64,000 nt of DNA, taken from positions 1-64,000 of the forward strand of contig JAPOZO010000076.1 in the NCBI GenBank assembly GCA_026706025.1. The letters run 5' to 3'. Positions 4,629 to 38,934 of the stretch are shown in pieces. Made by a program: the position numbers and the translations under genes. Each line of letters begins with the position of its first letter. Within the stretch, counting starts at the first letter, position 1. The notes below the pieces were generated by a model. That model was not told the origin of the DNA, did no database searches, and saw only the letters and a list, made by a program, of their open reading frames with translations. Origin of the DNA: Candidatus Poribacteria bacterium (GTDB lineage: Bacteria; Poribacteria; WGA-4E; WGA-3G).

Positions 4629-6359
4629 TTAGATTACCCGTTTCACATACACATAATACGCCCCAATTGCCAATTCGCCAGTTTCATCAGCAAACTCAGT
4701 GTGCATACGTGTCTGACCGGCGGTGAGGTCGAATGTAAACGTCACGCCTTTTGCATCCGGTGAAATGGCTTGTGTAGCCGTCTGGTTTCCAACGCGAATT
4801 TGTGCTGTTGTTAATGCCAACGCCTTTCCACCATTATAGAGATCAATATGCTCACCCGGAATGCCATCCGTTATCGCCCTGTCTTCGGCGTAGGGCCACC
4901 GACGCAGCTCAAAACTGTACTGTCCATCTTCCGGCACCTCAATCGCCCAATAACCGTTGCACTCCATGCCGCGACGAATCATCCCCTGATTCCATGCGTG
5001 TGATTCTCCGTGCCAATCGTGCGTTGTGATACACGTAACAGGTTCGCTTTGCGTGCCGACGACAATTGGACAATCCTCATCAAACCGCTTTGAAACCAAT
5101 TTCCACCACGCCTCATAATGTTCACGGAGTTCTGCGACAACCTCTGGATGCGCATCTGCTATATCGTGTTGTTGCCCGGGATCCGCTTGAATATCGTAGA
5201 GTTCTTTTCCGTTGATGAGTCGCCACCGTTGCGACATCGTCGCGCTATCTTTCCATTTAATCGGATTTTCGACGCGCTGCGAATCGGTAACGATAACCCG
5301 TTCTTCCCACGTCTCCGTCTCATTTCTCAACAACGGGACGATGCTTGTGCCGTGGAAACTCGCATTTGAGGAGACTTCGAGATCACAGAGATCTATCAGC
5401 GTTGGGAGCAGATCAATATTTGCGGTGAGTTCGTGCACCTCTTGCTTTTCCGTGAAACCACCACCGGGCCAATGCATGAACAGCGGCACGCGATGCCCAC
5501 CTTCATAAGGTGATCCTTTTTTGCCACGCATTCCGGCGTTATAGCCGGACTCGACAAACTGCCCCGCACCCAAGTCGCACCCGGCCGCAGAACCGTTATC
5601 GGTCATGAAGATAAGGATAGTATTTTCCTCAAGCCCCAAGACCCGGAGGTGATGTCGCATCCGTGCCATGTTGTCGTCTATATTGGTGATCATGCCGTAG
5701 AAATTCGCACGATCCCCCGATACACCCTTCCTGCGGTAGACTTCGCTGTAAGCATCAGGAACACGGAACGGACCATGAGGCGCGTTGGTAGAGAGATAAC
5801 AGAGGAATGGACTGTTCTGACTACCTTCAGCCTGCCGTTCAATAAACGCCATCGCCTCTTGGAACCAGACATCGGTGCAATAGCCATCAAAAGGCTGTTC
5901 GGAACCGTTGCGGAAATAGGTGTCGTCAAAATAGTCGTTGCCCCAATAGTCAGGGGTCTGACTGATACCGCCGCCACCGTGGTAGAGTGCTTCGTCGAAA
6001 CCTCTGTCGTGTGGACGGAACGGATAGTTGTCGCCGAGGTGCCATTTCCCGAACATAGCAGTTTTATAACCGTTGCGCCGGAAGATATCTGCCATCGTGA
6101 CCTCGTCACTGCGGAGGAGCGAGCGTCCGCCGATAGTATGCCACACACCCGTGGAATTGCAGTAGTGTCCCGTCATAATCCCTGCACGTGTCGGGGAACA
6201 GGTGGGACCGACGTGCAGGTTCTGCAGTTGTACACTCTCTGCTGCGAGCGCGTCCAGATTCGGTGTATTGATAACGGGATTTCCGGTGCATCCCAAATCG
6301 CCGTACCCTTGATCATCTGTAATGACGAAAACAAGGTTAGGGGTATTCTGTTGTGCCAC
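4629..6359 (-). CDS. arylsulfatase with C-terminal extension
   Basis: A 576-residue type I sulfatase. It hydrolyses sulfate esters using formylglycine made from the cysteine in GPTCSPTRAGIMTG (C-x-P-x-R), residues 51-64. Metal-binding motifs are ITDDQGYGDLG near the N-terminus and FMTDNGSAAG. No clear signal peptide is seen, which is unusual for glycan-degrading sulfatases. About 120 residues after the sulfatase core look like an extra beta domain of unknown role. The start is a GTG with AGGAG upstream. The plus-strand reading frame of 243 codons inside it is a shadow. Confidence 0.93.
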   Translation of the reverse strand: MAQQNTPNLVFVITDDQGYGDLGCTGNPVINTPNLDALAAESVQLQNLHVGPTCSPTRAGIMTGHYCNSTGVWHTIGGRSLLRSDEVTMADIFRRNGYKTAMFGKWHLGDNYPFRPHDRGFDEALYHGGGGISQTPDYWGNDYFDDTYFRNGSEQPFDGYCTDVWFQEAMAFIERQAEGSQNSPFLCYLSTNAPHGPFRVPDAYSEVYRRKGVSGDRANFYGMITNIDDNMARMRHHLRVLGLEENTILIFMTDNGSAAGCDLGAGQFVESGYNAGMRGKKGSPYEGGHRVPLFMHWPGGGFTEKQEVHELTANIDLLPTLIDLCDLEVSSNASFHGTSIVPLLRNETETWEERVIVTDSQRVENPIKWKDSATMSQRWRLINGKELYDIQADPGQQHDIADAHPEVVAELREHYEAWWKLVSKRFDEDCPIVVGTQSEPVTCITTHDWHGESHAWNQGMIRRGMECNGYWAIEVPEDGQYSFELRRWPYAEDRAITDGIPGEHIDLYNGGKALALTTAQIRVGNQTATQAISPDAKGVTFTFDLTAGQTRMHTEFADETGELAIGAYYVYVKRVI

Positions 6360-11589: not shown

Positions 11590-11871
11590 ATGGCAAAATT
11601 AACGAAGAACGATGTCGTCAGCAGTATCGTTGAACAAACAAGCCTCAGCAAGAAAGATGCGAACGCCGCTGTTGATGCTTTTGCTGCGACTATTTGCGAA
11701 GCTTTGAGCAATGGCGATTCCGTCGGCCTGATTGGGTTCGGAACATTTGAAACCAAAAATCGACCCGCCCGCACAGGTCGGAACCCACAGACCGGCGCAC
11801 CGCTGAGAATCCCGGCGAAAACGGTCCCTGCTTTCAAAGCTGGTAAGAAACTTCGCGACGCCGCCGCCTAA
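11590..11871 (+). CDS. hup: HU family DNA-binding protein
   Basis: A 93-residue nucleoid protein of the HU/IHF family, which bends and compacts DNA as a dimer. The fold is complete: MAKLTKNDVVSSIVEQTSLSK helices, then VGLIGFGTFETKNRPARTGRNP with the saddle motif and the DNA-contacting beta arm. A perfect promoter and a 115-base leader precede it. Expression is likely high. It is a single gene with an 11-bp inverted repeat after it. Confidence 0.97.
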   Translation: MAKLTKNDVVSSIVEQTSLSKKDANAAVDAFAATICEALSNGDSVGLIGFGTFETKNRPARTGRNPQTGAPLRIPAKTVPAFKAGKKLRDAAA

Positions 11872-31892: not shown

Positions 31893-32696
31893 TCAATCGT
31901 AATTACTGGGTCGATGGTCGCCGAGGAGCCGTCTCTGTCGAGGATTCGTTTGCGCGAGAATTGATTGATCAAACTGAAATTTGTTCAAATAAGGCGGGTA
32001 TTTCTGTGTAATCATCCGCATGGCATAGTGTACCTGCAAAAGGTAACGGGTTTCGTCACTCGTATTAGCAGAGCCACGATGCCAGACTTCACTGCGAAAA
32101 AGCACCACGTCCCCCGCATTGCATAAAATACTCTCTTCGCCCCGGTTATTCCACTCGGTTGCGCCGTTTGGAGAGCATCCGGAGAAATGGCTGCCCGGTA
32201 CAAACTTCGTCGGTCCCAATTCCTCATACATATCATTGAGATAGTAATGCGCAGTCGTAATGAAGATAGGGACTTTAACGCGTGGATCGGAACGAACATC
32301 TGTGGGTAGACTGATGGGCAGCCAATCGGTATGCAACCCTTGATCTGGACGGCCGGGTCCTGTTATCCACGATTGCATACCGATGCAATGGCAATCCTCG
32401 CCGTGCGTCGCCTCGGCAACTTCAATAATCGGTGATTTGTCAAGGAATTGGAGATACAACAGGTCGCGATTAAACGAGTTGTTGATGATTTTATTTAGGA
32501 ATCCGTCGCCATTTTGAGGCGTTTGATGCCGATCCAAACACTCCGGGATCGTCTCTAATCGGTCCATAGTGGCTCGCAATTCGGCGACTTCATCGGCGTT
32601 AAGCACACTGGGGAAGTAGACATAACCGTCCGTTTCAAGTGCTTCAACTTGGCTCTCTAAATCGTTATGTGCCACAAGTGAGAGGGCTTTTGACAT
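31893..32696 (-). CDS. PhyH family dioxygenase, paralogue A
   Basis: A 267-residue PhyH oxygenase. Iron ligands are in GLHTDWLPISLP and EVWHRGSANTSDETRYL (H, with R of TRYL as 2-oxoglutarate anchor). The protein at 35536-36339 has the same length and is more than 80% identical by eye, nearly identical over the last 95 residues; a scrap of the same gene lies at 33496-33546. Shine-Dalgarno AAGGAG precedes the ATG. Substrate unknown. Confidence 0.92.
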   Translation of the reverse strand: MSKALSLVAHNDLESQVEALETDGYVYFPSVLNADEVAELRATMDRLETIPECLDRHQTPQNGDGFLNKIINNSFNRDLLYLQFLDKSPIIEVAEATHGEDCHCIGMQSWITGPGRPDQGLHTDWLPISLPTDVRSDPRVKVPIFITTAHYYLNDMYEELGPTKFVPGSHFSGCSPNGATEWNNRGEESILCNAGDVVLFRSEVWHRGSANTSDETRYLLQVHYAMRMITQKYPPYLNKFQFDQSILAQTNPRQRRLLGDHRPSNYD

Positions 32697-35535: not shown

Positions 35536-36339
35536 TTAATCATAATTGCTTGGTCGGTGGTCGCCCATGAGCCTTCTCTGTCGAGGATTTGCTTGAGCGA
35601 GAATCGACGCATCGAACTGAAATTTATTTAGATAGGGCGGATATTTCTGTGTAATCATCCGATTGGCATAGTGGACCTGCATAAGATAACGAATTTCGTC
35701 ACTCGTATTGGCAGAGCCACGATGCCAGACCTCACTACGGAAAAGCACCACGTCTCCCGCATTGCATAGGATACTCTCTTCACCTCGGTTATTCCATTCT
35801 GTTGCTCCGTTTGGGGAGCATCCAGAGAAATGGCTGCCCGGCACAAACTTCGTCGGTCCCAATTCCTCATACATATCGTTGAGATAGTAATGAGCAGTGG
35901 TGATGAAGACTGGAATTTTGACGCGAGGATCGGAACGAATGTCTGCTGGTAAGGAGATTGGCAGCCAATCGCTATGTAATCCCTGATCTGGCCGTCCCGG
36001 TCCTGTCAGCCATGAATGCATGCCGATGCAATGGCAATCTTCACCGTGCGCTGCTTCGGCAACTTCGATAACGGGCGATCTATCGAGGTATTGAAGATAA
36101 AGTGGATCCCGATTAAACGAGTTGCTGATAAGCTTATGGAGAAATGCGTCGCCATTCTCAAGTGTTTCGTCCCGATCATGAGATTCAGGGATTGCTTCTA
36201 ATTGATCCATCATTGCCCGCAATTCAGCGATTTCATCGGCATCAAGCACGCCGGGAAAATAGACATAGCCATCCTTTTCGAGTGCTTCAACTTGGCTTTC
36301 TAAATCATTGTATGCGACGAGTGAGAGGACTTTCGCCAT
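35536..36339 (-). CDS. PhyH family dioxygenase, paralogue B
   Basis: A 267-residue near-copy of paralogue A with the same ligands (GLHSDWLPISLP; EVWHRGSANTSDEIRYL). Differences cluster in the N-terminal half (helices before the core) while the C-terminal third is almost unchanged, including the nucleotide sequence, which suggests either a recent duplication or gene conversion. GGAG precedes ATG 36339. It is 60 bases upstream of the WD40 gene in the same direction. Confidence 0.92.
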   Translation of the reverse strand: MAKVLSLVAYNDLESQVEALEKDGYVYFPGVLDADEIAELRAMMDQLEAIPESHDRDETLENGDAFLHKLISNSFNRDPLYLQYLDRSPVIEVAEAAHGEDCHCIGMHSWLTGPGRPDQGLHSDWLPISLPADIRSDPRVKIPVFITTAHYYLNDMYEELGPTKFVPGSHFSGCSPNGATEWNNRGEESILCNAGDVVLFRSEVWHRGSANTSDEIRYLMQVHYANRMITQKYPPYLNKFQFDASILAQANPRQRRLMGDHRPSNYD

Positions 36340-36441
36340 TTTCGGTACTCCTTTCGGACGATAGCAGCGGGTCAACGCTTATCGCTATGATATGTTAACC
36401 ACAACGAAGTTGTCAATGAAAAAATTGTCCCCATAATCCAA

Positions 36442-38601
36442 CTATACTGCCTTGAGTTTTCGCCATAGTGTTGTACGACTGATCCCCAAACGTTGTGCAG
36501 CGAGCTGCGGCTTTCCATCAGATGCCTCCAAAACCCGTTGGACTAATTCACGTTCCAATGCAGCAAGTGGGTTGCTTTCCCTGAGTGCCCGCGTAACAAT
36601 ATCATCTCTCGACGAAATAAGGTCGAGCGGTAGATGTTGCTTTTCAATACTGCTATCCTGACATTTGACGAATGCATGCTCTATGATATTCTCCAACTCT
36701 CGCACATTGCCGGGGTAGGTATAATCCATTAAGATTTCAAGGGCATCAGGTGCGATCCGATGAATGGACTTTTGTGTCTGTTGACTGAATTTTTCGATGA
36801 AGTGTTCAATGAGGAGTGGGATGTCATCTGGTCTTTCACGGAGTGGCGGCGGCGTAATCGGGACGACATTGAGTCTGTAGTATAAATCCTCTCGGAAACG
36901 TCCAGCGTCAATTTCTGTTTTCAGTATTCGATTTGTCGCTGCAATGACGCGGACATCTACTTTCTGTGTCTCGGTTGAACCGACCCTTTCATATTCACCT
37001 TCTTGCAAGACGCGGAGCAACTTTGCTTGTGTCCCGAGACTTAACTCGCCGATTTCATCAAGAAAAAGCGTGCCGCCGTCCGCAGCCGCGAATCGCCCTT
37101 CGCGCGTTGCGATGGCATCGGTAAACGCCCCTTTGACATGTCCAAAGAGTTCGCTTTCCAGCAAGTTGTCAACTAAGCCAGCGCAATTGACGCGGATGAA
37201 GGATTTCTTTGCCCGCTCGCTATTGTAGTGAATCGCGTGGGCAATCGGTTCTTTGCCGGTACCGCTTTCGCCTTGAATCAGGACGGTCGTTTTCATCGGT
37301 GCGACGAGTTGAATCAACTCGAAAATCTCCTGCATTTTCCGGTTTTTTCCGATGAGATTCCCAAACGAATGGCGCGCCTTGAGTTGGGCACTGAGTGCCT
37401 TTACCTCCGAGAGATCCCGGGCAAATCCTTGGATAAATTCCTGATCGTCATACGCAATTCGGATGGCGCGAATTTCCAATGGCAAGCGATTTCTGTTTTT
37501 ACGGGACAACTCCGTTTGGAAAGTAATCGGGTTCTGTTGGTCGAGGCTTTTGAGCGTTTCGCGGGTATTTTGAAATTCATCGGGAGGCATTAGGTCACAC
37601 AGGGACAGATTGACGAGTTCTTGATGTGTGTAACCGAGCCAGGCACAGAAATTTTCGTTTACAGTAACGAAGGCTTCCGTTAGCGATGGACAGATGAAGA
37701 TTGCGTCGTTGGACATCTCAAAAAGTGTGCGGTATCGTTTATTGTTTTCGGCGAGTTTGTCTGTCCAATTCCCTTTTTCAATCAGAATTGAGAGTTGTCC
37801 AGCAATCGGTTTCAGGTGTCCGATATGTGCTTCGGAGAATGCTCGGGGTTTTTCACTGGTGAAAAAGACGACCCCAATGGGTTTACCCTGCACCTTGAGC
37901 GGAAGTGTCAGATTGGAGCGCATCCCTTCTTGAACCATCAGCCTGGTCCAGTGTGCCGGTCTTTTTGCGAGAATTTCCTTAAAGTCGTCAATAATCCGTG
38001 CTTCACCTGAATTGAGGATAGGTTCAAGGCTTGACCCTTCGATTTTTGCTGAGAACCCGTTGTCCAGCAAGATTTTTCTGTTAGATTTCGTTTTGCACTG
38101 CACTAAATCACCGGAAGATTCGTCAACAAGCGCGATGCCTAACCGGTTATGCGGCACTATGTTCTGAAGTCCAGCGTGGATGTTCTCAAAGACTTCATCG
38201 AGTGTTTTTCCGAGTTGAATCTCCTCAAGGGTTTCATAGACCTGATCGGTGCCAAGGGTTTCCGTCAGTCTATTGTTTGCTGATGCTTCAGGGGTAATTG
38301 CAATCTGAAGTGTATCGCCCTGGATCCGGAGTGGATAGGTTCGGAGGTTCGGCGTGGTAATAGGGCATCCACTTTTCAGGTCGTATTGCCAACCGTGCCA
38401 CGGACAGGTGATAAGGTTGTCTTCCAATACGCCTTGGTTGAGCGGTCCGCCCTGATGTGGACAAGCGTTATTGACAGCATAAAACGCTTCACCTGCGTTG
38501 AAGATCGCGATGTCTTCACCCTCACATTTGACCACGATATTCTGTCCCGGTTCAATTTCAGTTGTTTTAGCAATATTAATCCACTTCACCTTTCCCTCCA
38601 C
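36442..38601 (-). CDS. sigma-54 activator with N-terminal Rieske domain (Rieske-GAF-PAS-AAA+-HTH)
   Basis: A 719-residue enhancer-binding protein. Residues 1-105 are a Rieske [2Fe-2S] ferredoxin-like domain with ACPHQGG (Cys47, His49) and TCPWHGWQYD (Cys66, His69). GAF-like residues 120-275 and PAS residues 285-400 follow. The AAA+ domain has Walker A GESGTGKEPIAHAIH (444-458), the sigma-54 contact loop GAFTDA (491-496, with D where G is usual) and Walker B TLFLDEIGEL; the last 45 residues are a Fis-type HTH (AAQRLGISRTTLWRKL). It probably senses redox or oxygen and activates the divergent VOC gene, whose sigma-54 promoter and operator-like repeats lie between them. Confidence 0.93.
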   Translation of the reverse strand: MEGKVKWINIAKTTEIEPGQNIVVKCEGEDIAIFNAGEAFYAVNNACPHQGGPLNQGVLEDNLITCPWHGWQYDLKSGCPITTPNLRTYPLRIQGDTLQIAITPEASANNRLTETLGTDQVYETLEEIQLGKTLDEVFENIHAGLQNIVPHNRLGIALVDESSGDLVQCKTKSNRKILLDNGFSAKIEGSSLEPILNSGEARIIDDFKEILAKRPAHWTRLMVQEGMRSNLTLPLKVQGKPIGVVFFTSEKPRAFSEAHIGHLKPIAGQLSILIEKGNWTDKLAENNKRYRTLFEMSNDAIFICPSLTEAFVTVNENFCAWLGYTHQELVNLSLCDLMPPDEFQNTRETLKSLDQQNPITFQTELSRKNRNRLPLEIRAIRIAYDDQEFIQGFARDLSEVKALSAQLKARHSFGNLIGKNRKMQEIFELIQLVAPMKTTVLIQGESGTGKEPIAHAIHYNSERAKKSFIRVNCAGLVDNLLESELFGHVKGAFTDAIATREGRFAAADGGTLFLDEIGELSLGTQAKLLRVLQEGEYERVGSTETQKVDVRVIAATNRILKTEIDAGRFREDLYYRLNVVPITPPPLRERPDDIPLLIEHFIEKFSQQTQKSIHRIAPDALEILMDYTYPGNVRELENIIEHAFVKCQDSSIEKQHLPLDLISSRDDIVTRALRESNPLAALERELVQRVLEASDGKPQLAAQRLGISRTTLWRKLKAV

Positions 38602-38669
38602 GCCTGCACAGGATTTGTTATCTATGGGTTACAGATTATCATATAGTGAACCGGATGTCAAGAATTTTG

Positions 38670-38758
38670 TTTCATAAATGAAAAACGTTTCATTTGTGAA
38701 AAACCTGTATTTCTCAACTCCCTAAGCAATTAATTCGGGTTTTGTTTCAGATTTGAAA
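38670..38758. promoter_or_regulatory. three TTTCA-N4-TGAAA inverted repeats (likely activator sites)
   Basis: Copies lie at 38670-38683, 38688-38701 and 38745-38758; the first two are centred 18 bases apart. Each is a 5+5 dyad, and the G before TTTCA is also kept. They lie about 80-170 bases upstream of the -24/-12 promoter, the usual distance for sigma-54 enhancer sites, and 70-160 bases from the activator start, so they could also control the activator itself. Confidence 0.75.
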
Positions 38759-38764
38759 TACATC

Positions 38765-38790
38765 GGTAAAATCTGAAATTTGGTTTTACC
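38765..38790. promoter_or_regulatory. inverted repeat GGTAAAA-N12-TTTTACC
   Basis: Perfect 7-bp arms at 38765-38771 and 38784-38790, between the activator sites and the sigma-54 promoter. It could be a second regulator or bending-protein site. Confidence 0.45.
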
Positions 38791-38835
38791 CCATAAAACG
38801 TTGATATACGTCAATTGTATAGGAACCTGGACACT

Positions 38836-38850
38836 TGGCACGAAACTTGC
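38836..38850 (+). promoter_or_regulatory. sigma-54 (-24/-12) promoter of the VOC gene
   Basis: TGGCAC at 38836-38841, five bases GAAAC, then TTGC at 38847-38850: an exact match to the TGGCAC-N5-TTGC consensus. Transcription would start near 38862, giving a 73-base leader to the ATG at 38935. The activator gene divergent from it is a sigma-54 enhancer-binding protein. Confidence 0.88.
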
Positions 38851-38934
38851 GACGCTATTGTAAAGACAAAAGATACCTAACCCGATTTGAGTTAGACGAT
38901 AAGGTTTAACTCTAAACTTCAGGAGGATTAAGAA

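Follow-up and report, generated by a model that had tools for sequence, protein, structure and literature searches.

A gene for a Rieske-type sigma-54 activator, the region upstream of it and the adjacent VOC-family gene very likely form a complete, self-contained sigma-54 module in this Candidatus Poribacteria genome (G000), as judged from sequence comparison. The predicted module comprises the activator, a three-dyad enhancer, a -24/-12 promoter and the adjacent target. Its core circuit is strongly supported by comparative genomics, namely by half-sites, spacing, co-loss, exchanged targets and a constant control region. The window is the whole 64 kb stretch of DNA analyzed here, and positions of its features are collected in Table 1.

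Elements and geometry of the control region

The intergenic region at 38602-38934 lies between the minus-strand activator and the plus-strand VOC gene. The preliminary description had reported TGGCAC-N5-TTGC facing the VOC gene and three TTTCA-N4-TGAAA repeats 80-170 bases upstream. Both were found: the promoter is TGGCACGAAACTTGC, and the three dyads are placed 78-166 bp upstream of its -24 element. The exact dyad occurs four times in the 64 kb window while 0.22 occurrences are expected from the shuffled window, and four per window was reached in none of 100 shuffles; the fourth is located at 37851, within the activator CDS. Three dyads plus a -24/-12 promoter in this intergenic region are far beyond chance. 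A further perfect dyad had also been described and is most likely the inverted repeat TTTCAGATTT / AAATCTGAAA (38745-38754 / 38769-38778), complementary at 10/10 positions with a 14-nt spacer. This repeat is not an independent element, since its left arm belongs to dyad 3; its right arm is a possible fourth half-site.

Table 1. Features of the activator-VOC locus, in window coordinates
Feature	Position	Strand	Remarks
-24/-12 promoter TGGCACGAAACTTGC	38836-38850	+	directed at VOC start 38935; 97.8% conserved
Dyad 1 TTTCATAAATGAAA	38670-38683	none	candidate activator site adjoining activator -35
Dyad 2 TTTCATTTGTGAAA	38688-38701	none	18 bp from dyad 1
Dyad 3 TTTCAGATTTGAAA	38745-38758	none	starts 91 bp before the start of -24 element
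AAATCTGAAA, right arm of inverted repeat with left part of dyad 3	38769-38778	none	well, not fully, conserved
IHF-like sequence WATCARNNNNTTR (TATCAACGTTTTA)	38794-38806	-	between enhancer and promoter; from sequence
Candidate sigma-70-type promoter of activator	38635-38661	-	TTGACA 38656-38661; A/T-rich -10-like ATTATC (+ strand) 38635-38640
VOC-family protein, 136 aa	38935-39345	+	PF00903; present predicted target
Sigma-54 activator	36442-38601	-	Pfam; orthologues 80-95% identical
PhyH (phytanoyl-CoA dioxygenase family) gene	35536-36375	-	PF05721; synteny; downstream of activator

Conservation of the dyads in related strains had been named as a check on the circuit, and the dyads are conserved. 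In an alignment of 18 genomes, mean identity to the window is 98.9% for the dyad half-sites and 97.8% for the -24/-12 element, compared with 76.5% for the remaining columns. When the dyad mask was slid along the alignment, conservation was maximal at its own position. All 18 genomes place dyad 3 at 90-92 bp from the promoter. By contrast, the interval between dyads 1 and 3 takes values from 75 to 304 bp, owing to insertions in four genomes (G003, G036, G048 and G049), which separate dyad 3 from dyads 1-2 and leave the dyad 3-promoter distance fixed. The layout is repeated in a second family, f3 (G073, G075, G076 and G081), with dyads of the form GTTTCA-N3/4-TGAAAC, of which some carry one to three mismatches; dyad 3 lies about 92 or 103 bp from the promoter, the two distances being one helical turn apart.

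On the activator side, the TGTCAA block (complement of TTGACA) is invariant in the 18-genome alignment, and its conservation suggests that TTGACA is probably the -35 element of the activator's own promoter. A consensus sigma-70 scan of the control region gave nothing above shuffles and did not list this candidate promoter, and its -10 spacing is not ideal. Since in the inspected lineages, family f3 included, a few bases separate TTGACA from dyad 1, autoregulation of the activator appears likely. One could go further and assign dyads 1-2 mainly to autoregulation, leaving only dyad 3, perhaps with the half-site at 38769-38778, as the enhancer of the target promoter. Dyads 1-2 are indeed near the activator -35 in all lineages, and dyad 3 is the only one whose distance to the -24/-12 element stays constant when insertions part it from the other two. 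Looping, however, would let dyads 1-2 act from farther off, and NorR requires all three of its sites according to the part of PMC2941729 that cites Tucker 2010. We consider this division of labor rather unlikely and prefer an enhancer of all three dyads.

The block at 38798-38818, around the IHF-like sequence, is 84% conserved in the 18-genome alignment. The IHF-like sequence was not seen in the family f3 control regions, and only one HU/IHF-family gene was found in the genome (window 11599-11862, + strand); for these two reasons an IHF site at this position is left as speculative.

The following mechanism is proposed. The activator would be made from its own sigma-70-type promoter, and dimers of its Fis-type HTH would bind the three TTTCA-N4-TGAAA dyads. 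The occupied dyads would seed assembly of the AAA+ ring, as three NorR sites do, and the ring would reach across about 90 bp to touch sigma-54 RNA polymerase waiting at TGGCACGAAACTTGC; this polymerase would then transcribe the adjacent VOC gene. Dyad 1, beside the activator -35, would probably mediate autoregulation as well. Both binding of the activator to the dyads and sigma-54 firing of the promoter are very probable, as suggested by conservation and by analogy to NorR at norVW.

Sigma-54 in the genome and the genes behind the promoter

Absence of rpoN had been named as refuting the proposed circuit, which presupposes sigma-54, but one copy of rpoN was identified in G000 (E=8e-59), together with about 20 sigma-54 activators. 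Strict -24/-12 sites number 124, compared with 17 for a reversed-pattern control, and such a site lies within 1.5 kb of 12 of the 20 strongest activator loci, indicating that local activator-promoter pairs are habitual in this genome. A strict -24/-12 site also follows several short sigma-54 activators on their own strand at a distance of a few hundred bases, on G000 contigs C34, C63, C89, C20 and C61 (loci L288, L289, L293, L294, L297, L299, L302 and L305).

The preliminary description had suggested a genome scan for dyads upstream of -24/-12 promoters. When 85 genomes from the phylum were scanned for a composite pattern of a dyad, 62-92 bp and TGGC-N8-TGC, it matched 18 activator loci and six other places. 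The latter are mostly in coding frames with no activator nearby and are chance places. G000 contains a single match, at the activator locus, which points to one target operon at this stringency. The dyad by itself is not specific, as shown by 29 chance occurrences elsewhere in G000, mostly coding. None of these 29 has a second dyad nearby or a strict -24/-12 site downstream, and they were rejected as marks of a second regulon member. The G000 gene of the Rieske-631 family described below was likewise rejected as a present-day second target, having neither dyads nor a -24/-12 site.

The VOC protein has a predicted VOC fold (pLDDT 87.6). Among solved structures its closest folds are FosX, glyoxalase I/GloA2 and L-DOPA dioxygenase; it shares with them the fold and a probable metal site, but identity is only roughly 17-26%. 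Residues H7, H73 and E119 are invariant in 12 homologues and would fit this metal site. The gene order VOC-activator-PhyH is usually kept in relatives. The PhyH gene, which probably starts at ATG 36337-36339, is a frequent conserved neighbor that is retained where the activator is deleted, and it may possibly be co-transcribed with the activator; no evidence of sigma-54 promoter control of PhyH was found at the locus. A WD40-repeat gene and a superoxide-dismutase-like ORF lie between two PhyH paralogues about 85% identical (31893-32696 and 35536-36375), and the paralogue pair is found again in the genomes of many relatives.

VOC genes about 95% identical to that in the window were detected in six genomes with no activator orthologue (G022, G026, G037, G038, G047 and G056). 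In G022, G037, G047 and G056, the 600 bp upstream of the VOC gene hold no dyads and no promoter, and the PhyH gene now adjoins the VOC gene; a leftover of the activator 3' end is visible in G037. Neither dyads nor a promoter were found in the 385 bp of upstream DNA present in G038, while in G026 the VOC gene is at a contig edge and uninformative on upstream sites. Such co-loss is weaker evidence than independent losses, since one deletion can span the activator and its upstream DNA. The pattern also bears on an alternative in which some unrelated repressor or activator uses the dyads as operators and the neighboring sigma-54 activator works elsewhere. Palindromes of such size are common as operators, but in the genomes examined dyads occur at VOC or Rieske-631 genes only beside the activator, and across families conservation extends to both the dyads and the HTH recognition region. 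We regard unrelated operators as very improbable.

The gene behind the conserved promoter is not constant. An M24 peptidase gene lies between the promoter and the VOC gene in G048, G030 and G031, and a cupin-like gene does so in G040 and G046. In G003, which belongs to another genus, this control region with its three dyads and promoter faces a 631-aa protein, Rieske-631, with an N-terminal Rieske domain followed by a long region predicted helical; its structure model is poor (pLDDT 55). Genes of the Rieske-631 family are present in 76 of the 85 genomes. Among the 28 Rieske-631 loci read, of 30 listed, only the activator-adjacent one has three sites and a -24/-12 element; one further locus has a lone dyad. 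In family f3, Rieske-631 comes first behind the control region in G073 with a VOC homologue further along, and the order in G075 is VOC, rhodanese-like, Rieske-631. The rhodanese-like frame of the latter (L278, G075:C33, about 5860-6190) contains ...EIVTY*G*PGEGSAA..., in which in-frame TGA codons take the place of two expected cysteines, and could possibly encode a selenocysteine protein or be a broken gene. Relatives keep the control region while exchanging the gene behind the promoter. The VOC gene, described earlier as the target, is the predicted target in this genome and most of the genus, yet over evolution the target has changed.

The activator and its possible signal

The activator consists of a Rieske domain (aa 6-87; Pfam E=2.5e-19), GAF (132-275), PAS (299-399), AAA+ (416-582), an AAA lid and a Fis-type HTH (679-718); Pfam identified the AAA+ sigma-54 interaction domain and the HTH (PF00158 E=1e-70, PF25601, PF02954). 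Its start is probably better placed at GTG 38587-38589 than at GTG 38601: the latter codon, further upstream, is overlapped by a GGAGG ribosome site, and in most orthologues the alignment begins at MKWIN. Counting partial copies, about 21 of the 59 family genomes have an orthologue. In one locus (L065, G043:C329) the activator is cut to its AAA+/HTH half and fused to DNA from the M24 peptidase locus, by deletion or assembly collapse.

The earlier proposal of a complete circuit is strongly supported by comparison for the activator, the three-site enhancer, the -24/-12 promoter and the single target operon. Its redox-signal step is less secure: the Rieske domain is lost in three relatives, GAF and PAS are alternative sensors, and the AAA+ loop has a variant sequence. 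The Rieske ligands C-x-H...C-x-x-H are present, and CPH...CPWH is invariant in 14 orthologues, divergent G003 included, which argues for selection on a functional cluster and makes redox sensing by this domain plausible. We tentatively propose, short of even confidence, that the Rieske [2Fe-2S] cluster is the redox sensor of the sigma-54 activator within a portable three-site module whose target (Rieske-helical, VOC, M24 peptidase, cupin) has been repeatedly exchanged.

The loop reads GAFTDA, a variant of GAFTGA, in every orthologue of the window family, while f3 and f7 relatives have GAFTGA or GAYTGA. The equivalent change in NorR, G266D, is fully constitutive and escapes GAF repression (PMC2941729), and by analogy the loop could make the activator partly constitutive. 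A stronger form of this idea is that the activator is largely constitutive in the window lineage, with GAFTDA, a derived state in this family, uncoupling the AAA+ motor from the sensors, the Rieske domain a dispensable relic or fine-tuner, and output following activator dose via autoregulation. In-frame deletion of just the Rieske region in G030 (L064), G031 (L049) and G051 (L063), with the junction ...WIN-TDQVY... and the control region intact, would agree with it; the activator tree indicates one or two such events, with an identical junction in separated branches. The invariant Rieske ligands argue for selection instead. FlgR of epsilonproteobacteria naturally carries the G5 to D change and is functional (PMC3162934), so GAFTDA need not mean constitutive activity and is accepted, on this analogy, as a functional variant. 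A largely constitutive activator is unlikely in our view, and the Rieske domain may sense redox state.

Comparison with known systems

A limited search gave no case of the Rieske-GAF-PAS-AAA+-Fis architecture outside Poribacteria: among the best 80 loci of a genome scan with two peptide patterns, no Rieske-activator fusion came from another phylum. Nor did the literature searched contain a paper about a Rieske sigma-54 activator, or about sigma-54 in Poribacteria. The locus offers a regulator, its sites and a promoter that are open to testing in an uncultured sponge-symbiont phylum. It also provides natural experiments on a sigma-54 module that keeps its enhancer geometry while changing its target, and on the effect of a fixed GAFTGA-to-GAFTDA change and of Rieske loss on signalling.

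Rieske ferredoxins and oxygenase components have a like C-x-H...C-x-x-H [2Fe-2S] domain, but here it is fused to a transcription activator and does not serve electron transfer to an oxygenase. FlgR is a two-component flagellar regulator and is not known to have a Rieske domain or an adjacent enhancer module of this kind. What it shares is a GAFTDA-type loop that occurs naturally in a functioning sigma-54 activator (PMC3162934).

The closest parallel is NorR at norVW of E. coli, a single-component sigma-54 activator with a GAF domain, a divergent target and three dyad sites upstream of one -24/-12 promoter, where three essential enhancer sites scaffold a higher-order oligomer (PMC2941729). Here too, three candidate enhancer sites lie between divergent genes. 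The window locus differs in the added Rieske and PAS domains, departing from the NorR order of GAF-AAA+-HTH only, in the dyad and the GAFTDA loop, and in the target, which is a VOC gene and not norVW, with no flavorubredoxin. The window activator scores 345.6 bits against the NorR equivalog, below the cut-off of 476 and matching only at aa 393-716, and no evidence of a nitric oxide role was seen at the locus. The module would work like NorR/norVW but is not NorR.
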